Source: Methanocaldococcus infernus ME (GTDB lineage: Archaea > AGJL01 > Methanococci > Methanococcales > Methanocaldococcaceae). Taken from it: DNA of 64,000 nucleotides. The position numbers were made by a program, and so were the translations under genes. The stretch spans positions 1,054,001 to 1,118,000 of the forward strand of contig NC_014122.1 in NCBI RefSeq assembly GCF_000092305.1, read 5' to 3'. This document shows, one piece after another, positions 4,854-57,998 of this stretch. A model generated the notes under the pieces. It was not told where the DNA came from and did no database searches. It saw only the letters and a list, made by a program, of their open reading frames with translations. Within the stretch, counting starts at the first letter, position 1. Each line of letters begins with the position of its first letter.

Positions 4854-4960
4854 GCTCTCACCAATTTTAATTACTTGATTAAGAAAGCCACTTATATGTT
4901 ATAAAGGGAATTTATTTTATATTTAGTTTTAGTATCGAATGGAGTATGAAGAGGGAAAAT

Positions 4961-6013
4961 ATGAAATTCTTTAACCGAGAGAAAGAAATTAGAGAAATTC
5001 TTTCTATTTTGGAGTTTGAGCCTAATTTTATCTATTTTATTTACGGCCCTATTAATAGTGGAAAGACGGCTTTAATTAACGAGGTTATTAATAAACTTGA
5101 TGAGGAATATGTGGTGTTTTATTTTGACTTAAGAGAGATTTTTATTTCCAAGTATGAAGATTTTATAGAGGTTCTCTTTGAGGAGTATGAGGAAGATAAA
5201 AATCCTATAGAATTGGTTAAGAGCTTAATTAAAGACTCTTCCATTCTTTTTGGAATTCCTACACCAAAGAATACGTTAGAAACTTTACTAAGTAAAAAGA
5301 AACCTAAAAATGTTTTTAAATATATAACTAATATTTTATTGGAGCTTAGGAAAGAAGGAAAACAACCAATTATTATCTTGGATGAACTTCAAAAGATAGG
5401 AGATTTAAAAATTAACGGCTTTTTGATTTATGAGCTTTTTAACTATTTCATAAGTTTAACTAAGCATAAACACCTATGTCATGTCTTTTGTCTATCTTCA
5501 GATTCTTTATTTATTGAGAAGGTTTATAGTGAAGCGATGCTGAAAGGTAGAGCTGATTATATCTTAGTTGATGACTTTGATAAAGAAACAGCCTTAAAGT
5601 TTATGGACTTTTTAGCTGAAAACATTTTAAATAAAAAACTCTCAAATGAAGAAAAAGAATTAATTTATTCATACGTTGGAGGGAAACCAGTACTAATAAT
5701 AAATGTAATAAATAAGCTAAAAACTAAAAATTTGGATGAAGTTTTAAATTACTTACTAAATGTAGAGATCTCTGACATTATGAACTTGTTAGTTAAAGCT
5801 AAAAATAATAAAGAAAAAGTTGTTAATGCTTTAAAACTCTTTAAAGATAGATATGAGATAGATGCTTATAGCATAGAAGAAGACATAAAAGAACTTTTAG
5901 TTAAAAGGAATATTCTATTTTTAGACCCTATTAAGAGGATTTTAAGGCCACAGAGCTTTTTAACTTGGAGAGCCATAAAGATTTTATTAGAATCTAAACA
6001 ATTTTTCAATTAA
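4961..6013 (+). CDS. Archaeal-type P-loop ATPase (Arch_ATPase family)
   Basis: About 350 residues that begin with the family's [12 protein letters not shown] segment. The Walker A loop GPINSGKTA lies near residues 29-37 and Walker B in IIILDELQ near 137-144. The rest matches the expanded archaeal ATPase family of methanocaldococci, with a C-terminal winged-helix-like region. These AAA-related ATPases are of unknown role and often belong to mobile or variable gene sets. I chose the ATG at 4961, not 4946, because GAGGG lies 5 nt upstream. The first 700 bp carry about eight CpG dinucleotides, whereas neighbouring genes have none or one, which hints at recent acquisition. The 3' end overlaps the next convergent gene by 27 nt. 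Confidence 0.8.
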
Positions 6014-26404: not shown

Positions 26405-27403
26405 ATGGACATTATATTAAAATCTTATGGATTTTTTATATATAAAAAAGGAGATAGGTTTATTTTTGAAGTTAAAGAAAATGGAGAAGTAAAGAAAGTT
26501 GAGATCTCTGCAAGTAAAGTTAAAAGAATAATTTTAGGAAAAGATGGAACTATTACTACATCAGCAATTAACTTAGCAATAGAATACAATATTCCAATAA
26601 TATTTTTAAAAAATGAGGATCCTACAGCAATGATATGGCATTGTAAGTTAGGTAAGACTGGAAAAATAAGAAGAAATCAGATAAAGTTTTCAGACACTAT
26701 TGAAGGAATGAAATATGCATCAAAATGGATTGAAAGAAAAATGAAAAATCAAATAGATTTTTTAAAAGAGCTTAAAAAGAACCATGGTAAGAAAGGAGAT
26801 TTTAACAAAATAATTGATAATATAAAAGAGTGTATTGATGATTTAAATAGATACTTAAATAATACAAAGGAAAATTTAGGGACTGTTAGAGACACTATTA
26901 TTGGAATTGAAGGGACTGCCTCAAAATACTATTTTAAAGGAATTAATTTAGCTCTTCCAGAAAAATATAAATTTAGTGAGAGAAGTAGAAGACCTGCAAA
27001 GGATAGGTTTAATGCTCTACTAAATTATGGTTATGGAATGCTTTATCCAGTTGTAGAAAAAGCTTGTATAGTTTCTGGTTTAGATCCATATATTGGATTT
27101 ATACATTCTGATGGATATAATAAGAGGTCATTAGTCTATGATATAATAGAGATATATAGAATTTATGTGGATAAAGGAGTTGTAAGTTTTATAAATAAAA
27201 AGAAAGTAAAAGATGAGTTTTTTATTAAACTACATAATGGAGTAGCCTTGTCAGATACAGGAATTAAAGAGTTTGCAGCATTCATAAATGAATATATATT
27301 TGATAAAGAGCTTGAGATTTATAAAAAGAGATATAAATTTCCTGATGCTATACAAAAGGAATGTTATAAAATTGCAAATGATATAAGGGAGAGATATTTA
27401 TGA
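26405..27403 (+). CDS. cas1: CRISPR adaptation integrase Cas1
   Basis: Cas1 integrates new spacers at the leader-repeat junction. The 332-residue protein has the N-terminal beta domain and the C-terminal catalytic helical domain. The metal ligands are visible as E169 (GIEGTASKYYF), H234 (GFIHSDG) and E249 (YDIIEIYR), all intact. The ATG follows GGTGAAGTT. The stop overlaps the cas2 start by 4 nt (ATGA). The rightward adaptation operon cas1-cas2-cas4 leads straight into the leader of array 1. Confidence 0.95.
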   Translation: MDIILKSYGFFIYKKGDRFIFEVKENGEVKKVEISASKVKRIILGKDGTITTSAINLAIEYNIPIIFLKNEDPTAMIWHCKLGKTGKIRRNQIKFSDTIEGMKYASKWIERKMKNQIDFLKELKKNHGKKGDFNKIIDNIKECIDDLNRYLNNTKENLGTVRDTIIGIEGTASKYYFKGINLALPEKYKFSERSRRPAKDRFNALLNYGYGMLYPVVEKACIVSGLDPYIGFIHSDGYNKRSLVYDIIEIYRIYVDKGVVSFINKKKVKDEFFIKLHNGVALSDTGIKEFAAFINEYIFDKELEIYKKRYKFPDAIQKECYKIANDIRERYL

Positions 27404-27684
27404 TTTATGTAATTTATGATATAAGTGATGATAAAATTAGAAAAAAAGTTTCTGATAAGTGTTTAAATTATGGATTATTAAGAATCCAAAAAAGTGTATT
27501 TGCGGGAAATCTAAACAAAAATAGAATTGATGAATTAAGAGTTTTCTGTGAGAATATTATTGAAGAGAATGACAAAGTTTACATAATTGAAGTTTGTGAA
27601 AAGTGTTTTGGAAAGTTAATTTGTATTGGTGAAGAATTTGATAAGGAGTTAGTTAATGACTCTAAAAAAACTATGGTGCTCTAA
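27400..27684 (+). CDS. cas2: CRISPR adaptation protein Cas2
   Basis: Cas2 forms the Cas1-Cas2 complex that measures and inserts spacers. The 94 residues show the ferredoxin-like Cas2 opening MIYVIYDISDDKIRKKV with the conserved Asp at residue 7, followed by LNYGLLRIQKSVFAG. The ATG is coupled to the cas1 stop. The normal length and intact first strand argue for function. Confidence 0.94.
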   Translation: MIYVIYDISDDKIRKKVSDKCLNYGLLRIQKSVFAGNLNKNRIDELRVFCENIIEENDKVYIIEVCEKCFGKLICIGEEFDKELVNDSKKTMVL

Positions 27685-27685
27685 A

Positions 27686-28276
27686 ATGGAATTTGATATG
27701 ATAACAGTGTCAGATGTTATTGAATACTTATACTGTCCAAGATTTGTTTATTTTGAGAGAGTTTTAGGAATTCTTCAACATGAGGAAAAAAGAGAAAAAG
27801 TTTTAATTGGAAGGCATATTCATGAGCTGAAAGAAAAAATAAATAAAAACTATATCAGAAAATCAATAAATGCTAAATCAAAATATTCAAATGTTTATCT
27901 ATCATCTAAGAAATACAAAATAGTTGGGATTGTAGATGAAGTTTTAGAATTAAATGATGGAAGCTTTTCACCTCTAGACTATAAGTTTGCAGAGTATAAA
28001 AGTAGATTATTTAAAACATATAAGTATCAATCTGTTTTGTATGGCTTATTGATTAAAGAAAATTTTAATGTCAATGTAAATAAAGGGTTTATAGTTTATG
28101 TGAGAAGTGGAAATCTTATTAAAGAAATTAAATTCAAAAAAGAAGATTTTAAAAAAGCTATTGAATTCATTAAACTTATATTTGAGATTATTGAAGATGA
28201 AAAATTTCCCATAGATATTAAAGTTAATAAAAAGAAATGTATTGATTGTTGTTATAGAAATTTATGCTGCCTTTAG
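27686..28276 (+). CDS. cas4: CRISPR adaptation nuclease Cas4
   Basis: Cas4 trims prespacers and helps select the PAM and orientation. About 196 residues. It carries a RecB-type nuclease core (GIVDEVLEL, SPLDYKFAEYK, then the YKYQS motif) and the Fe-S cysteines, one near the N-terminus (LYCPRFVYFE) and three near the end (KKCIDCCYRNLCCL). I chose the ATG at 27686, just after the cas2 stop and behind ATGGTGC; the longer frame from 27656 lies inside cas2. It ends 16 nt before the leader hairpin. Confidence 0.9.
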   Translation: MEFDMITVSDVIEYLYCPRFVYFERVLGILQHEEKREKVLIGRHIHELKEKINKNYIRKSINAKSKYSNVYLSSKKYKIVGIVDEVLELNDGSFSPLDYKFAEYKSRLFKTYKYQSVLYGLLIKENFNVNVNKGFIVYVRSGNLIKEIKFKKEDFKKAIEFIKLIFEIIEDEKFPIDIKVNKKKCIDCCYRNLCCL

Positions 28277-28728: not shown

Positions 28729-29274
28729 GTTTGAATCGCCAGTCCATTAAAACAAGGATGGAAACTAAGTATCAATTTCTAATGTACCTTGGGTATCTGG
28801 GTTTGAATCGCCAGTCCATTAAAACAAGGATGGAAACCTTGTGCTTTTTCTTCTTGCCATTATCTCATTCCTCGTTTGAATCGCCAGTCCATTAAAACAA
28901 GGATGGAAACAGATGGACGGGTTGTTTTCTCATATCAATGATTTGTGTTTGAATCGCCAGTCCATTAAAACAAGGATGGAAACTTCACAGGAGTATGTTT
29001 AGGTGGTGGAAAATCAGATTCGTTTGAATCGCCAGTCCATTAAAACAAGGATGGAAACATAAAATAAGAGCGTATTCTCTAAAAAACTTTGGCTTGTTTG
29101 AATCGCCAGTCCATTAAAACAAGGATGGAAACCCCAGCAGATCTATGTCCTCCATTCCCGAGGAAAATGTGTTTGAATCGCCAGTCCATTAAAACAAGGA
29201 TGGAAACCTTTTGCAGTTTTTAGGATGTGCATTTAACCAAACAAAAGTTTGAATCGCCAGTCCATTAAAACAAG
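28729..29274 (+). CRISPR. CRISPR array 1: 7 full repeats plus 1 truncated, 7 spacers
   Basis: The 37-nt repeat begins GTTTGAATCGCC and ends GGATGGAAAC. Full copies start at 28729, 28801, 28874, 28947, 29022, 29096 and 29171 and are identical. The eighth at 29247 keeps only its first 28 nt and then breaks into AAAAAATG. Spacers are 35, 36, 36, 38, 37, 38 and 39 nt. The leader and cas1-2-4 lie upstream, so transcription is rightward. The repeat end fits a type I-B handle ATGGAAAC. The truncated repeat marks the old, leader-distal end. Confidence 0.98.
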
Positions 29275-29288
29275 AAAAAATGAAAAAC

Positions 29289-45344: not shown

Positions 45345-45806
45345 ATGAGAATCTCTCCATTAGTTGCTGGGCTCATAGGAGGCTTTGTAGCTGCTTTGTT
45401 ACAAGCATTCTTTAATGTCTTCCCCCCTCCAGCTTATGGAGTTTGTATAGCATGTCATACAAGAGATTTAGTTAATTGGATTGTTAATAATTTATTTGGA
45501 AGTAATTTAGGCTTAGCTCCTGTTTCTAAAGCCTTTCCAGTTTTAACAGTTGTTGGCATATTCATAGGAGCCTTTATAGCAGCCAATGCTCATAAGGAGT
45601 TTAAATTAAAAGAAACTCACAACCCTATAGTTGGCTTTGTTTTAGGAATCTTAGTTATTATCTTTGCCCTACTAATGGGAGGTTGTCCATTGAGAGAAAC
45701 AATAAGAACAGCTTATGGAGATATTATAGCTTTCATAAGTTTAATAGCCATGTTCATTGGGGTTATAGTTGCAAGTGAGGTTTATCTAAAAAGAAAGGCT
45801 TGGTGA
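45345..45806 (+). CDS. YeeE/YedE-type transporter, first half
   Basis: A 153-residue membrane protein with about four helices. It contains CIACHTRDLVNW near residue 35 and the family motif LLMGGCPLRETIRTAYG near residue 110. YeeE/YedE proteins import thiosulfate or move selenium/sulfur species. Bacterial versions are one long chain with two such halves; here the halves are separate genes. The ATG follows GGTGATCTT. The second half begins 4 nt after its stop with its own ribosome site, so this is a true split, not a frameshift. Confidence 0.8.
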   Translation: MRISPLVAGLIGGFVAALLQAFFNVFPPPAYGVCIACHTRDLVNWIVNNLFGSNLGLAPVSKAFPVLTVVGIFIGAFIAANAHKEFKLKETHNPIVGFVLGILVIIFALLMGGCPLRETIRTAYGDIIAFISLIAMFIGVIVASEVYLKRKAW

Positions 45807-45810
45807 AAAA

Positions 45811-46278
45811 ATGCTTCATGTCATAGGAACTTTTATTTTTGGGATAATATTGGGCTATCTCTTCCAAAGGGCAAGGATGTGCTTTATTGGAGGGATGAGA
45901 GATCTATATCTAATTAGAGATACTTGGCTAATTAAGGGACTTTTTGGTTTCTTCATTGGAGCTTTGATAGGTTATATAATATTTAGTGCTATTGGAAAAA
46001 TTCCTGCTTTCCCATGGTTTGTAGCAAAAGGCTTAACTCCAATTCCAGGAGATCCTTTAGGAGCAAAAGGTTCTTTAATTGGCCATCTAATTTTAGCCAT
46101 TATAGGAGGCTTTGGAGTGGGCTTTTTCTCAGTTATCCAAGGGGGCTGTCCATTAAGAAACTATGTAATGGCTGCTGAGGGAAATAAGACAGCTATGGCT
46201 TATATAGTTGGGCTGTGTGTTGGAGCTATTATCTTCCATACTGTTGTAGCTCCACTTGTTAAAATGCTCTTATTATAA
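45811..46278 (+). CDS. YeeE/YedE-type transporter, second half
   Basis: A 155-residue membrane protein with about four helices. It starts with GTFIFGIILGYLFQRARMCFIGGMRD, the YedE pattern with a cysteine in the pore-lining helix, and has VIQGGCPLRNYVMAAEG near residue 110. It pairs with the preceding half to form a pseudo-symmetric transporter. GGTGAAAAA precedes its ATG. The DUF3343 gene follows 20 nt later, an association typical of selenium/sulfur trafficking clusters. Confidence 0.8.
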   Translation: MLHVIGTFIFGIILGYLFQRARMCFIGGMRDLYLIRDTWLIKGLFGFFIGALIGYIIFSAIGKIPAFPWFVAKGLTPIPGDPLGAKGSLIGHLILAIIGGFGVGFFSVIQGGCPLRNYVMAAEGNKTAMAYIVGLCVGAIIFHTVVAPLVKMLLL

Positions 46279-46298
46279 ATTTTTTATTTTGTGGGACT

Positions 46299-46844
46299 AT
46301 GATCTTGGAAAAAGTTAAATCTCTATTTTCAAAAAGAGAAGATAGTAAAGAAGGAAAGGGATTAATTATTTTTAAAAGTGTTAAAGATGCTATGAAAGCT
46401 GAGAAGGTGTTAAAGGATTTTAATATAAGGGTTGTAGCTCCTCCTCCAGAGATTAGAGAGGGATGTGACTTAGCTATAGAGTATGAGTTAGTTGATGAAA
46501 TAGGGATTAAAAGAATACTGAAAGAGAATAAAATAGAGCCTTTAAGGTTTATCTCTTTAAATGACTACTCTTTAAAGCCTTTAGAGCTTGTTAAGGTTAA
46601 ATATATTGGAAACTTTGTTATGGTTAGATGTGGGAATATGAAAATAACCCTCAATAGAGAAGGGAAGATAGTCAATATCTCTGGTGGAGGTTGTCCAGAT
46701 GTTCCTTATCTATCTTTGAAGTTGTTGGGAAAAAATATTTACAATAGTGAAGAGCCTAAGGATATTGGATATTCTCTCTGTGCATATACACTTCAGAAAG
46801 CCTTTGAAAGGGCAAGGGAAGAGGTGAAAAAATTAAGAGAATAA
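46299..46844 (+). CDS. DUF3343 domain protein with extra C-terminal domain
   Basis: A 181-residue protein. The N-terminal part matches DUF3343 (GLIIFKSVKDAMKAEKVL, then RVVAPPPEIREGCDLAIEY), a small putative sulfur/selenium carrier family often next to YedE. A second domain follows with VRCGNMKITLNREGK and the cysteine motif SGGGCPDVPYL near residue 130, which I do not recognise. Two cysteines (in REGCD and GGGCPD) could carry sulfur or selenium. Its end overlaps the apparent start of the cyclophilin-like gene. Confidence 0.65.
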   Translation: MILEKVKSLFSKREDSKEGKGLIIFKSVKDAMKAEKVLKDFNIRVVAPPPEIREGCDLAIEYELVDEIGIKRILKENKIEPLRFISLNDYSLKPLELVKVKYIGNFVMVRCGNMKITLNREGKIVNISGGGCPDVPYLSLKLLGKNIYNSEEPKDIGYSLCAYTLQKAFERAREEVKKLRE

Positions 46845-47224
46845 AGATAAAATTTAAAGACTTTGAGATTGAGGCTGAGCTTTATGAAGAGCTTGCTCCA
46901 AAGACAGTTAGGAAAATATTGGAAGGTCTTCCTATTAAAGGAATAGTTAATAGATGGGGAGATGAGATATATTTTGAAACTGAGGTTATTGTTGATGAGG
47001 AAGAAAATTCTAAAGAAGTTGTTGAGCTTGGAGACATTGCCTACTGGATCCCTGGGAGAGCTATTTGCCTATTCTTTGGGAAGACCCCAATAAGTGATGA
47101 TAAAATAAGGCCTGCAAGTGCTGTTAATGTTATAGGAAAAATAATTAACATAGAAAAATATATTGATAAATTAAGAGAAGTTAAAGATGGAGAAGTTGTT
47201 GAAGTTAGAAGTGATGCTCAATGA
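46832..47224 (+). CDS. Cyclophilin-like (DUF369 type) protein with apparent ATT start
   Basis: The core (LPIKGIVNRWGDEIYFETEV ... GDIAYWIPGRAICLFFGKTP) fits the archaeal cyclophilin-like family. The first good start in frame is TTG 46919, but it would cut off a conserved first strand and helix encoded upstream (IKIKFKDFEIEAELYEELAPKT). No ATG, GTG or TTG exists between the stop at 46805 and 46919. ATT at 46832 lies 5 nt after GAGGTG and gives a 130-residue protein of normal family shape. The 3' end overlaps the next ATG by 4 nt. Function unknown. Confidence 0.6.
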   Translation: MKRIKIKFKDFEIEAELYEELAPKTVRKILEGLPIKGIVNRWGDEIYFETEVIVDEEENSKEVVELGDIAYWIPGRAICLFFGKTPISDDKIRPASAVNVIGKIINIEKYIDKLREVKDGEVVEVRSDAQ

Positions 47225-48042
47225 TCATAGCTGGAACTTTGCCAATAAAAGGCTTAGACTTAGTTAGAGGAAAACCAAGGTTAGAGGGAAATAAATTAAT
47301 CTTAAATAACTTGGAGATTCCAATATCTATGGGTACTTCTACACTTATAGCAAGTGCTATAAAAACCTTAGAATACTTTGGAGAGAATGAGTTAGAGGTT
47401 ATAACTGCTGGAGATATAGGAGAAGGAGATGGAAGCTTAAAGATTTACAATGAGTTGAAGGAAGTTAATGATGACTTGTTAGTTATTCATTACATAAAGC
47501 CAAAGATCTCAAAGATTAGGGAGATAGACTTTTCTCCAAAGATTATAGCTGATGCTGGAGGAATGTATGCTGCTAAGGCTGCAAATATTGGAGATAAATT
47601 TTTTCTCTTCCTTCCAGATGTTGGAGAACTCTCTTTCTTAGCTGATGAAAAAGCATATCATCCAGCATATGTTAGAGGCTTCATCTCTGAAGTTGATGAT
47701 AGGGAAGTTCCTAAGCTAATTGAGAGAGCTTACAAAAATGTAAAGATGCCAAAATACTTAGTTGTTAAGGGAGAAAAAGACTATGTTGTTAGTGAGGGAA
47801 AGATTATTAAAACTATTGAAGAGCCTAAGATAGAAGCTATGGAGTGTATAGGAGGAACTGGAGACAGCTTAACAGGAATTATTTCCTCTTTAATTTCTCT
47901 CAACTTTAAGCCAGAAGAGGCCTGTATTTTGGGGTGTAAAGTAAATAGAGTTTTAGGAGAAATAAGTGAAGTGAAGCCTGATACAAAAATTGAAACTTTA
48001 ATAAAAAATATTCCAAAAGCTTTAAAAATTTTAAAGATTTAA
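47221..48042 (+). CDS. Ribokinase-fold protein resembling NAD(P)HX dehydratase
   Basis: A 273-residue protein. The C-terminal motif MECIGGTGDSLTGIISSLI near residue 209-227 is the anion hole and catalytic Asp of ribokinase/YjeF-C-type enzymes. ITAGDIGEGDGS near 60 and IIADAGGMYAA near 110 support the fold. ADP-dependent NAD(P)H-hydrate dehydratase is one possibility, but it lacks the YjeF N-terminal epimerase domain and diverges elsewhere, so the substrate is uncertain. It is coupled to the cyclophilin-like gene (4-nt overlap) and converges with cdhC. Confidence 0.6.
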   Translation: MIIAGTLPIKGLDLVRGKPRLEGNKLILNNLEIPISMGTSTLIASAIKTLEYFGENELEVITAGDIGEGDGSLKIYNELKEVNDDLLVIHYIKPKISKIREIDFSPKIIADAGGMYAAKAANIGDKFFLFLPDVGELSFLADEKAYHPAYVRGFISEVDDREVPKLIERAYKNVKMPKYLVVKGEKDYVVSEGKIIKTIEEPKIEAMECIGGTGDSLTGIISSLISLNFKPEEACILGCKVNRVLGEISEVKPDTKIETLIKNIPKALKILKI

Positions 48043-48048
48043 TTAAGC

Positions 48049-50232
48049 TTATTTTTTCATATTTATGTTTATGACTATTTTAACATTCTTCATAATAATC
48101 TGTATGCCTCTCTCTTTTATAATAGATTTAATATCTTCAAACTCCAACCCTTCTTTTTCCTCTTCTTCTTTCTCTTCCTTAACCTCTTCAACTTCTTCCT
48201 TACCAAGGGATTCAACGATCGGATGACCTTTCTCTTTTAAGAATTTAATTAGTTCGTCAACGCTACTTACATCTTCCTCTGTTGCTATCTTGTCATAGAG
48301 CTCTTCAGGGATAGCTTCTTTAACCCTCTCTTTCAACTCCTTAGGTAGCCACACTACTCTCTTCCAACCGCCATCTCCTTGTAAGAACTTAGGAGACATC
48401 ATATAGCCAATAGAAACGCCAACAAAGCCAGGAACTTGCTTTCCTCCACTACACTGTCCAGCTATTGAAGAGAAAGGCAAGCCGAGAGGAGTTTCTCCTT
48501 TAAAGTTTCTATGCACTACTCCAAAGCCATCCACTTCTGGAATGTAAAAGACGACAGCTTCAAAGCAACCACAGGAAGTACAAGGATTATTTAAAGCTGA
48601 GTGTAGGCAGAAAGACTCTACAGAGCCTTGAGATCTTTCAGAGACAACTTCATTAACTCCACTATAAACGCCAAGGGTTTCATCTAAGCACTCTCCCTTA
48701 GGAATTTCAAATATTGGTCCATTAGGATCTATCTTAGCCGCTGCTCTTGCGTCTAAGTAGTTTATCCCTCCACATAACGCTGGCCTATCTGGAGTTATAA
48801 CACAGACATGAGTAGGAGCGAAACTTTGGCACATTATACAGCCATAAAACACGTCAACATCTTCCTCTTTTAAAGCCCTTGTTCTCTCGTCTCTCTTTTT
48901 ATAAATCTCCTTAGCCTTCTCCAACTCTTCCTTTATCTTCTCAGGATCTGTAATTATTGTAACTTCACAGCTCTTTATAAATGGGAACTCTTCCTTGAAG
49001 AGTTGTTTAACGACTTCTCCAATATGTTTTAATCTCAAACCCTTTTTAAAGCTCTCCTTTCCTATTCTAATCCATATCTGATCTCTCTGATTTAAGTGCA
49101 TAACTCCCTCTATGTAGTTAAAGAACTCGTGTATCCTCCTCTCTAAAACTCCTTCTAACTCCTCTTCTAAGTTGTCTCCACTAACCTTAACAATAATAGC
49201 GAATGGATACCTCTCCCCTTCCTTCATCTCATCTAACTCTTTTCCAATAACCTCAACCTTATCCTCAGCGTTATCAACAACCTTAACCAACTCAAAACCG
49301 AAACTCTTCGGCCCAGCGAGTTCAACATACATATCAGGCTTTCTTATCCTCTCTCCCTCATTCATCGGCCCTACTGAGACTGGAATCTTAAATTCTGAAA
49401 CCTTAACCTCAATGCCCTTCATCTTTAAAGCTTTATCTACAATTTCATCTAAACTTGCCTTCTCTAAAGCTCCTTCAATTACTGGAACATCATTATCAGT
49501 GATAACAGGAATTCCAGCCTTTATACATCCAGCTCCAGCTGATAAAGTTATATTATCCAACTCTCCCAAGGCTAAGACAACAGCAGGAACCCTTTCTTTC
49601 AAATACTTTATAATTTCTTCAGTGTCTCCAGGCTTGACATTTCCAAAAATAAGAGGAGCCCTTATAGCTAAGTTAGCTGCATGTGAAGCTTTAGTTATCT
49701 CTTCTCCAATAGGAACTAATAATTTATCTAATCCAACCTCTATATTAGCCTCTTCAAGCTCTTTAACTATCTTTCCAACAAAGAGAGCTAATATATTTCT
49801 CTTCTGAATTTCTTCAATTAACTTCTTCAACTTTTCTTTATCTCCAACACTTCCCACAACCACAAAAATAGCTGGAATCTTCTTCTCAACCAATGGAACC
49901 CCAAGCCCTCTTAAAACTTCATCAGGAATAAACCCTGAACCTTCTCCTTTAGCATACTTTAAAGCCTCAAGAGCTTCAGCACAGATTAAGGTTATTACTC
50001 CAGCATTAAGAGCATTTTCTAAGCTTTTTTCATCTTCAATTTTTAAGCTTTTTATTAATTCTTTTAAATCTTTAACATTTTCAACTTTCTTCCCTAAAAG
50101 TCCATAGATTATAGGTAAGTTATAACTTGTTCCAGGATAGCCTAACTTTAAGTTGTCATCTTCATCTTTTATAGTATTCCATGTCAATTCTAACACTTTT
50201 TTAGCACCATCAATTATATTCTCAACTACCAA
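48049..50232 (-). CDS. cdhC: Acetyl-CoA synthase / CO dehydrogenase complex beta subunit
   Basis: CdhC carries the A-cluster and condenses CO, a corrinoid-borne methyl group and CoA to acetyl-CoA, the core of autotrophic carbon fixation. The 727-residue protein has an N-terminal domain of about 300 residues like that of bacterial AcsB, which the short Methanosarcina CdhC lacks. The A-cluster cysteines follow (GCIMCQSFAPTHVC, PALCGG, CTSCGCF). The acidic tail EEKEEEEKEG ends in a short conserved-looking helix. The block 48215-49370 is CpG-rich, unlike the rest of the gene. The other cdh genes are not adjacent. Confidence 0.92.
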   Translation of the reverse strand: MVVENIIDGAKKVLELTWNTIKDEDDNLKLGYPGTSYNLPIIYGLLGKKVENVKDLKELIKSLKIEDEKSLENALNAGVITLICAEALEALKYAKGEGSGFIPDEVLRGLGVPLVEKKIPAIFVVVGSVGDKEKLKKLIEEIQKRNILALFVGKIVKELEEANIEVGLDKLLVPIGEEITKASHAANLAIRAPLIFGNVKPGDTEEIIKYLKERVPAVVLALGELDNITLSAGAGCIKAGIPVITDNDVPVIEGALEKASLDEIVDKALKMKGIEVKVSEFKIPVSVGPMNEGERIRKPDMYVELAGPKSFGFELVKVVDNAEDKVEVIGKELDEMKEGERYPFAIIVKVSGDNLEEELEGVLERRIHEFFNYIEGVMHLNQRDQIWIRIGKESFKKGLRLKHIGEVVKQLFKEEFPFIKSCEVTIITDPEKIKEELEKAKEIYKKRDERTRALKEEDVDVFYGCIMCQSFAPTHVCVITPDRPALCGGINYLDARAAAKIDPNGPIFEIPKGECLDETLGVYSGVNEVVSERSQGSVESFCLHSALNNPCTSCGCFEAVVFYIPEVDGFGVVHRNFKGETPLGLPFSSIAGQCSGGKQVPGFVGVSIGYMMSPKFLQGDGGWKRVVWLPKELKERVKEAIPEELYDKIATEEDVSSVDELIKFLKEKGHPIVESLGKEEVEEVKEEKEEEEKEGLEFEDIKSIIKERGIQIIMKNVKIVININMKK

Positions 50233-50360: not shown

Positions 50361-51239
50361 ATGTCTCTAATTCTTTGTTACTTTGGAAATAATGGGGCTA
50401 TAATCTTAGGAGATAGGAGGGAAATGTTCTTTAGAGGAAATGAGGAGAAGAGGAAAGAGTTGGAAGAACTACTATATAGTGGAGAAATAAAGAGTGAGGA
50501 AGAGCTTAGAAAAAAAGCTGAAGAGCTTGGAGTTAAGATAATTATTGAAGATAAAAGAAGAAAGGTTTGGAAAATAAAAAATGTTGTTGTAGGGGAGGTT
50601 AGAAGCTTAGGGTTGGATGCTAAAAGAAGGAGAGTTTATGCTACAAAAAGAAAAGCTAAGATATTAGAAATTCTAAATGACCAAATTATTGGGGAGAAGA
50701 ACTTAGAAGGGTTCAGCATTATCATCTTCTCAAACAAATTTATTAAGGAGGAGATTAACAAATATCTAAAGGAGTATTATAGAGTATTACCAATGAAAAG
50801 AATTGATGAGGTTGGGGAAATCTTTAAAGAGATATATAAAAAGGTCTCTTGGCATCCTACTTTAAGTGAAGAGTTTGATGTAGAAAAGACAGATAAGGAA
50901 GAGGAAGACTTTGAAGAGGTTATAGAGGAAGATGTTAAAAAGTTATTTGAGTATAGGGAAGAATTGAAAAAGAAGTTAGTGGATTTTGGTAAGGTTATGG
51001 ACATAGTTAATAGAATAGTCAAAAATGGAGAGATAGGAGAAGTGAAAAATGGAAAGCTACATTTATTTGATGACTATATAGCAGTAGATTCAATAAAACC
51101 AAATCCTAAAACCTATAAGGTTATAGATATTGAAGGAGCTGAGGATGGAGACATAATAGTTATAGAAAATGGAGAAATGAAAGTAAAAGGAAAAGATAAA
51201 AAGGTTAACACTAACTATATTATTATAAAATCATGGTGA
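50361..51239 (+). CDS. DUF2121 protein, Ntn-hydrolase-like N-terminus
   Basis: A 292-residue protein whose start ([20 protein letters not shown]) resembles the first strands of proteasome subunits. A long charged helical region follows ([23 protein letters not shown]), then a beta-rich end. This matches the archaeal DUF2121 family from memory, which is conserved in methanogens and has no known role. It begins a rightward set with minD 7 nt downstream. The conserved pairing with MinD suggests a cell-surface or division role, but this is inference. Confidence 0.65.
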
Positions 51240-51246
51240 TTAAGAT

Positions 51247-52035
51247 ATGGCTGTTGCTATTGCTATTGCTTCTGGAAAAGGAGGAACTGGGAAAACAACA
51301 ATTGCTGCTAACCTTGCTGTTGCATTAGCAAAGTTTGGGAAAAAGGTGGCTGTTTTAGATGCTGATATAGCTATGGCTAACTTAGAGCTTATCATGGGTT
51401 TGGAAGGGAAGCCAGTAACTTTAAATGATGTTCTTGCAGGGAAGGCAAGTATTAAGGAAGCTATCTATAAAGGGCCTGAGGGAGTTTTAGTCATTCCAGC
51501 AGGGGTTTCCTTAGAAAAATTTAGAAGAGCAAACCCTGAAAAGTTGGAAGAGGTTTTAAAAGAGATTCATGACTTAGTTGATATTTTAATTATAGACTGT
51601 CCTGCAGGGATAGGGAAAGAGACCCTTATAGCCATATCATCAGCTGATGGGCTTATCTTAGTGGTGAATCCTGAAATCTCTTCCATCTCTGATGCTTTGA
51701 AGGTTATAGCTATAGCAAAGAGGTTAGGAACTGAGATAATAGGGGCTATAGTTAATAGAGTATCTAATGAAAGTACTGAGCTTAGTGTTAAGGCAATCCA
51801 AACAATTTTAGAGATTCCAGTCCTTGGAGTGGTTCCTGAGGATCCACATGTAAGAAAGGCTGCAGCCTTTGGTACTCCTTTAGTTGTTATGTATCCAGAT
51901 TCTCCTGCAGCTCAGGCTATAATGGAGATAGCTGCTAAGTTAATTGGAGCTAAGTATGAAGCTAAATATAAAAAGAAGAAAAAAGAAAGCTTTATCTCAA
52001 GACTTATTAAGGGACTATTTGGTGGTAGAAAATGA
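51247..52035 (+). CDS. minD: MinD-like P-loop ATPase
   Basis: A 262-residue ParA/MinD ATPase. The deviant Walker [16 protein letters not shown] lies at 9-23, with [19 protein letters not shown] and the Walker [10 protein letters not shown] near 117. The C-terminus has a basic stretch and a short amphipathic helix ([18 protein letters not shown]) suited to membrane binding. Archaeal MinD homologues position surface structures rather than divisome inhibitors, and no MinC or MinE is here. The stop overlaps the ATG of the tiny membrane protein by 3 nt. Confidence 0.9.
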
Positions 52036-57055: not shown

Positions 57056-57998
57056 GTTTGAATCGCCAGTCCATTAAAACAAGGATGGAAACCGATGGTT
57101 TAGAAGCCCTAACACAATTAATAGAAAAGTTTGAATCGCCAGTCCATTAAAACAAGGATGGAAACCTGGAGTTCCAACAACATACTTTTTTCTCCAAGGC
57201 ACGTTTGAATCGCCAGTCCATTAAAACAAGGATGGAAACAAGCAGAGGTAAATACAATAGATAACGAATTAGTGAGTTTGAATCGCCAGTCCATTAAAAC
57301 AAGGATGGAAACAAATTCTTCTTTTTAACTTTTCTACTATCTCCTGATAAGGTTTGAATCGCCAGTCCATTAAAACAAGGATGGAAACGCATTAGTTACC
57401 ATATCTGCATATCTCAACGTAAACGTTTGAATCGCCAGTCCATTAAAACAAGGATGGAAACTGAATGTTCATTTTAAATATAAACATCTTGGATTAAAGT
57501 TTGAATCGCCAGTCCATTAAAACAAGGATGGAAACATGGATAAGATAAATCAAGCTCCTCCAGAACTTTCTTTCTCAATGTGATCTCAACAAAAGACATG
57601 TTTGAATCGCCAGTCCATTAAAACAAGGATGGAAACTTTTTGTTGGCTCAGGAGTTGGTGGGAAGATAATTGTTTGAATCGCCAGTCCATTAAAACAAGG
57701 ATGGAAACACACTAACTTTGGGATTTTGTCTAGGGGTATTCTGGTTTGAATCGCCAGTCCATTAAAACAAGGATGGAAACATCTTGACGAAAGAACCCAA
57801 GAATCCCATATCCATTGTTTGAATCGCCAGTCCATTAAAACAAGGATGGAAACTCAACATAAATTCTCTTAGCACATATGTATTCCTCAGTTTGAATCGC
57901 CAGTCCATTAAAACAAGGATGGAAACACGTGGATAAGAGGTATGTGACATACTACATCATAGTTTGAATCGCCAGTCCATTAAAACAAGGATGGAAAC
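57056..57998 (+). CRISPR. CRISPR array 2: 13 identical repeats, 12 spacers
   Basis: Repeats of 37 nt start at 57056, 57129, 57203, 57276, 57352, 57425, 57499, 57600, 57672, 57744, 57817, 57890 and 57962. They are identical to each other and to array 1. Spacers are 36, 37, 36, 39, 36, 37, 64, 35, 35, 36, 36 and 35 nt; the seventh (57536-57599) is an outlier. The leader is on the left, so transcription is rightward. The last repeat is intact and its final base is also the last base of the helicase gene's stop codon. Confidence 0.98.

Follow-up and report, generated by a model that had tools for sequence, protein, structure and literature searches.

A conversion tract between two acetyl-CoA synthase genes of Methanocaldococcus infernus and its richness in CpG

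The long acetyl-CoA synthase (ACS) gene of Methanocaldococcus infernus (G000) has an A2/A3 core which, with near certainty, was replaced through gene conversion from the short cdhC gene of the same genome. The converted tract contains all CpG dinucleotides of the gene. The explanation that best covers the data as a whole is probably a conversion tract in which CpG is retained via recombination with a bias toward CpG. The window, by which we mean the whole 64-kb stretch of DNA analyzed, corresponds to positions 1054001-1118000 of the complete circular chromosome of 1,328,194 bp.

The CpG block and the second copy of the core

The long gene and its parts are located in the window as follows.

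48049..50232, minus strand: long acetyl-CoA synthase gene, bifunctional alpha/beta, three-domain type, 727 aa (NF007078 and NF040764)
49390..50232, minus strand: A1 part (N-terminal, CODH-contact), outside the converted tract, 0 CpG
Residues 19-93: CODH_A_N (PF18537), a conserved N-terminal domain in A1, by profile match
48934..49386, minus strand: CdhC domain (PF03598), residues 283-433, within the converted tract
48211..48903, minus strand: ACS/CODH beta C-terminal domain (PF19436), residues 444-674
48049..48149, minus strand: acidic C-terminal tail, specific to the long gene, outside the tract, 0 CpG
48216..49367, no strand assigned: CpG-rich block, 23 CpG
48150..49389, minus strand: tract common to the long gene and the short cdhC (short-gene side at genome positions 72153-73392), from self-BLAST

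In profile searches the long gene product scored 1020.7 bits against NF007078 (cut-off 809) and 907 bits against NF040764 (cut-off 800), and both matches cover residues 1-674. PF18537, PF03598 and PF19436 are all above their cut-offs, so the protein combines CODH-contact, CdhC and ACS C-terminal domains. The A-cluster cysteines, CIMC...C...C and CGC, were read from the translation in the PF19436 region. Judged by family, the gene is predicted to encode a three-domain bifunctional alpha/beta acetyl-CoA synthase. The name cdhC, which it had received in the first-pass annotation, is imprecise. The converted core of the gene is of CdhC type. The long and short genes are both ordinary members of the NF040764/TIGR00316 families, and compared with known alpha/beta and CdhC proteins neither product has anything unusual.

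The M. infernus genome is strongly depleted in CpG, with 3214 in total, an observed/expected ratio of 0.086 (about twelvefold depletion) and no CpG in the median gene. The window contains 97 CpG in 64 kb (observed/expected 0.058). About 23 CpG had been reported for the block and none for the rest of the gene, and our recount gave exactly these figures: 23 CpG, all at 48216-49366, with 0 in 48049-48215 as in 49368-50232. CpG is also absent from each of the seven nearest genes on either side (45345-48042 and 50361-52035), in line with the earlier estimate of nil to one. By codon phase, the 22 CpGs of the strict core fall into 17 at NNC|G boundaries and 5 in NCG codons, with none in a CGN arginine codon. 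We rejected the idea that a stable RNA underlies the block, because the window gave no Rfam match and no tRNA.

Self-BLAST revealed a second copy of the core, 1240 bp long and 97.9% identical, with 26 mismatches and 0 gaps. The partner is a short TIGR00316 cdhC gene (455 aa, genome positions 72150-73517) which consists of the A2/A3 core only, directly follows a 4Fe-4S ferredoxin-like gene, and is separated from the long gene by about 298 kb round the circular chromosome. The match extends from codon 2 of the short gene to the acidic tail of the long gene and therefore takes in all alignable sequence. There are 23 CpG in the long copy of the match and 21 in the short copy; outside it, neither the 944 bp left of the long gene nor the 128 bp left of the short gene contain any. 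For the long gene, the placement of all 23 CpG inside the 1240 of 2184 bp that match the second gene has a probability of 2e-6 under a uniform binomial model.

The direction of transfer was read from 27 diagnostic residues that separate unconverted long cores from short cores. The long gene of the outgroup (Methanococcaceae) is long-type at 23 of the 27, and that of M. infernus is short-type at 22 of the 27. The short gene is thus the donor, and its core replaced that of the long gene. Gene conversion or domain replacement of the A2/A3 region had been proposed from the base composition; the 98% identical paralogue, the conflict between A1 and core trees and the diagnostic residues all bear this out.

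Homogenization of the two genes across the genus

Long and short ACS genes are both present in seven genomes read (G000, G001, G003, G004, G005, G006 and G013), and match counts hint at an eighth, fragmentary genome with both. In six of them, the long and short cores of one species are each other's partners, with 89-100% identity; in G005 they stand apart (85%). In the core DNA tree the long gene pairs with the short gene in G000, G001, G003, G006 and G013 with 99-100% bootstrap support, and in G004 the two genes are identical across the core. The data reject a tree in which the cores of the long genes form one clade (p-AU 4e-42). G004 offers the clean case, in which both ends of the tract are visible. 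Before the junction, its long gene and that of G005 agree at 97-100%; past it, their identity is 66-96% over most of the tract, where the G004 long and short genes are 100% identical. Two separate 100% tracts occur in M. jannaschii (G003), in a core that is otherwise 76-89% identical. Over the tract only, paralogues are more alike than orthologues, and the flanks are discordant, as in concerted evolution.

Separate phylogenies of A1 and of the core, the check suggested in the first-pass annotation, are discordant and support recombination; the concordant trees and the same CpG step in all orthologues, which it had named as evidence against its own reading, were not found. The single-copy orthologue in G012, an equally CpG-poor genome, has 1 CpG in the core compared to 20-22 in M. 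infernus. Since CdhC/ACS phylogenies of Methanocaldococcus mix two histories, A1 and A2/A3 need separate analysis.

G002, G009 and G012 have only one ACS gene, of the short type (the G009 assembly is fragmented), and the three-domain ACS was likely lost within the genus in some species. In M. jannaschii the short cdhC seems to adjoin an rRNA operon, as ORFs of the locus L086 match rRNA-antisense ORFs. A CpG-dense stretch, perhaps an rRNA operon, lies beside the short cdhC in G002, G004, G005, G006 and G012. The short cdhC of M. infernus does not adjoin an rRNA operon.

In the same order of methanogens, the Methanococcales, mtrA-1 and mtrA-2 have undergone concerted evolution through long-lasting gene conversion (PMC4632066). 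As in that system, ancient ACS paralogues are homogenized per species and the trees pair paralogues by species. Unlike mtrA-1 and mtrA-2, the ACS partners differ in domain make-up, lie far apart on the M. infernus chromosome and share a tract marked by CpG. A term search of PMC4632066 found no mention of CpG.

CpG and self-identity in the whole genome

We binned the coding DNA of two genomes, read whole or nearly so, by the identity of its best self-match. In M. infernus the density is 0.75 CpG/kb without a self-match and 0.80 with a match of 70-80%; it is 7.1 at 80-85%, 14.0 at 85-90%, 17.2 at 90-95% and 16.5 at 95-100%. The trend is alike in G012, with 1.3, 1.9, 6, 8 and 12.4 CpG/kb in order of rising identity (a 79-bp bin at 85-90% left out). 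Many of the repeats in this table are probably mobile or recently acquired, and the test was therefore limited to native genes, defined as those that form a reciprocal best pair with a gene of G012, a relative that is also poor in CpG. A density of at least 5 CpG/kb was reached by 10 of 14 duplicated native genes as against 12 of 1004 single-copy ones (p = 2e-15). In partly duplicated native genes, the matched part is CpG-richer than the unmatched part in 14 of 14 cases (p = 6e-5, the genes not all being independent).

The step seen in the ACS gene recurs in three kinds of native gene (MCP, methyltransferase and AmtB), where it is confined to the stretch with a paralogous counterpart; for MCP and methyltransferase it is seen in two species. 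Chemoreceptor signaling domains have 20.9 CpG/kb versus 0.0 in the remainder of one of the genes, and the RlmI-like methyltransferase pair has 6.3 and 10.4 CpG/kb versus 0; both patterns are repeated in G012. The thermosome gene has 19 CpG/kb in M. infernus, where it is duplicated, and 2.4/kb in its single-copy G012 counterpart, which has 4 CpG in all.

G000:C1:722620-724251 and 879870-881501: thermosome gene pair, identical proteins, DNA 99.7% identical, 31-32 CpG each

The other CpG-rich stretches of the window are an AAA-ATPase gene and two CRISPR arrays.

4946..6013, plus strand: AAA-ATPase of a multicopy family, 8 CpG, DNA identity to other copies up to 86%, with several CpG-rich relatives of about 80-90% DNA identity across the chromosome
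28729..29283, plus strand: CRISPR array, 8 visible repeats GTTTGAATCGCC...GGAAAC, CpG-rich
57056..57998, plus strand: CRISPR array, 13 visible copies of the same repeat, CpG-rich

Both arrays have the repeat GTTTGAATCGCCAGTCCATTAAAACAAGGATGGAAAC, with one CpG per repeat, and their spacers are CpG-rich. Genes at 27400-28276 resemble cas2 and cas4 by reading of the sequence.

CpG richness is likely tied to the presence of a second copy. The data suggest that CpG pairs survive mainly in near-identically duplicated DNA, where recombination between copies protects or restores them. No earlier report of this pattern was found in the literature searched, mostly outside subscription journals. There are exceptions. 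The G012 glnK pair is 100% identical with CpG as low as in its flanks, and the G004 ACS pair is 100% identical with background CpG; both would fit recent conversion or duplication, and they weaken a simple rule. In the long genes of G004, G005 and G013, A1 is richer in CpG than the core, and in less CpG-depleted species the ACS effect is two- to threefold or absent.

The composition of the block had also been attributed to a donor with different base use. In its fullest form, this would be an ACS copy from an unsampled, CpG-normal relative, which was then copied over and whose CpG is undecayed donor composition. The probably mobile or recently acquired CpG-rich repeats are in its favor, as is the frequency of C before G in the core, which is similar to that in relatives whose CpG suppression is weaker (G008, for example). 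The core, however, nests in Methanocaldococcus as a vertical gene would, with 74-77.6% DNA identity to every genome tested, and a scan of the genome collection for relatives of the core gave only Methanothermococcus, Bathyarchaeota and Baldrarchaeota, at 56-75% protein identity. With no genome above 77.6% in the core, we rejected this origin. The identical step in native MCP, methyltransferase and AmtB genes would demand many independent imports, each ending exactly at the border of paralogy. The donor is the cell's own cdhC, CpG richness is common to most recombining repeats, and a foreign source appears improbable.

Selection on codon use would explain the block if high expression of the short cdhC had maintained its C-ending codons ahead of G and the long gene then received them by copying. 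Single-copy EF-1a, mcrA and the S-layer gene have high CpG in both of the CpG-poor species, so strong expression does appear to raise CpG. The following CpG-rich single-copy genes of M. infernus have no DNA paralogue.

G000:C1:1298654-1299940: EF-1a
G000:C1:258350-260020: mcrA
G000:C1:630673-631134: ribosomal protein S13
G000:C1:953504-955507: S-layer gene

These four genes have no or few NCG codons, and their CpG probably results from expression-related codon selection. In EF-1a and mcrA, NCG is 0 and C-ending codons are raised before any base, whereas the ACS tract combines an NCG fraction of 0.24 with ordinary use of C-ending codons. A1, on the same mRNA as the core, has no CpG, and we rejected plain codon selection on this ground. 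The low count in the core of the single-copy G012 cdhC also speaks against it, and the chemoreceptors and the methyltransferase, for which high expression is not expected, behave like ACS. Codon selection is thus a very unlikely source of the block.

The effect is specific to CpG. At codon boundaries (pyrimidine-ending cases), C precedes G in 24% of cases in the ACS tract versus 1.1% in single-copy genes, and NCG makes up 24% versus 0.9% of NCR codons. The frequency of C before bases other than G is 0.337 in the tract and 0.329 in the genome. Because CpG is up while C before non-G is flat, it is CpG suppression that is lifted and not GC content that is raised. G-ending codons amount to 0.458 in ACS and 0.308 in MCP versus 0.383 in the genome, and the thermosome is also below average. 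General GC-biased conversion was rejected, as C before non-G is unchanged and silent sites have no general rise in G/C.

Possible mechanism of CpG retention

Through recombination within the genome, the short core was copied over the long core, recently and probably repeatedly. In the mechanism we propose, CpG suppression, extreme in unique DNA, would be lifted where DNA recombines with a second copy. Ectopic gene conversion would most likely be biased, such that a heteroduplex of CpG versus TpG or CpA would be restored to CpG. We infer both the causal role of recombination in CpG retention and the repair chemistry.

Bias is needed in this scheme, as unbiased conversion cannot shift equilibrium composition. 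Conversion might instead be unbiased and CpG depletion incomplete for other reasons, for example if repeats were younger on average, and the link to CpG would then be a correlation with age. The association of CpG is observational, and identical pairs without CpG such as G012 glnK, which indicate that identity alone does not set CpG, would agree with this reading. Against it, the ACS pairs have existed for as long as the genus, and still their CpG is unsuppressed in M. infernus. We regard unbiased conversion as having little likelihood.

The behavior of repeats can be compared with two known processes. Repeat-induced point mutation (RIP) in fungi destroys C in repeats and acts above about 80% identity to a near-identical copy. 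Biased conversion as proposed here resembles RIP in that composition depends on a near-identical copy with a threshold near 80% identity, but the sign is opposite, with CpG kept in repeats and lost from unique DNA. In GC-biased gene conversion in bacteria, the base composition of recombining DNA is shifted, which has been ascribed to biased mismatch repair (PMC4450053). The composition of recombining DNA is shifted here as well, but only CpG is up, with C-ending codons before other bases at genome level and G-ending codons up little or down. The sole archaeal data set in that study (Sulfolobus) was uninformative.

That ectopic recombination specifically restores or protects CpG in CpG-starved hyperthermophilic methanogens, so that CpG reads out recombining genes and Archaea have CpG-specific biased conversion, is to us an evenly balanced proposition. 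If true, CpG islands in such genomes would directly show where gene copies are still recombining. It would also provide evidence of biased gene conversion in Archaea, for which PMC4450053 had no usable data, and make the cause of CpG depletion in Methanocaldococcus testable.

Several enzymes were considered for the repair step. NucS/EndoMS is absent from G000 and G012, and a UDG-superfamily glycosylase (PF03167) is absent from G000; both were rejected on these grounds. Two HhH-GPD glycosylases are present in M. infernus. None of the enzymes considered was identified as a mismatch-repair enzyme specific to CpG, which counts against the proposed mechanism. The genome also encodes two DNA methyltransferases.

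G000:C1:190030-191100 and 1249060-1249974: two C5-type DNA methyltransferases, found genus-wide, most fully in complete genomes

Where a fourfold site lacks C ahead of G, both A and T take its place. As both are raised, this is not the signature of simple deamination alone.
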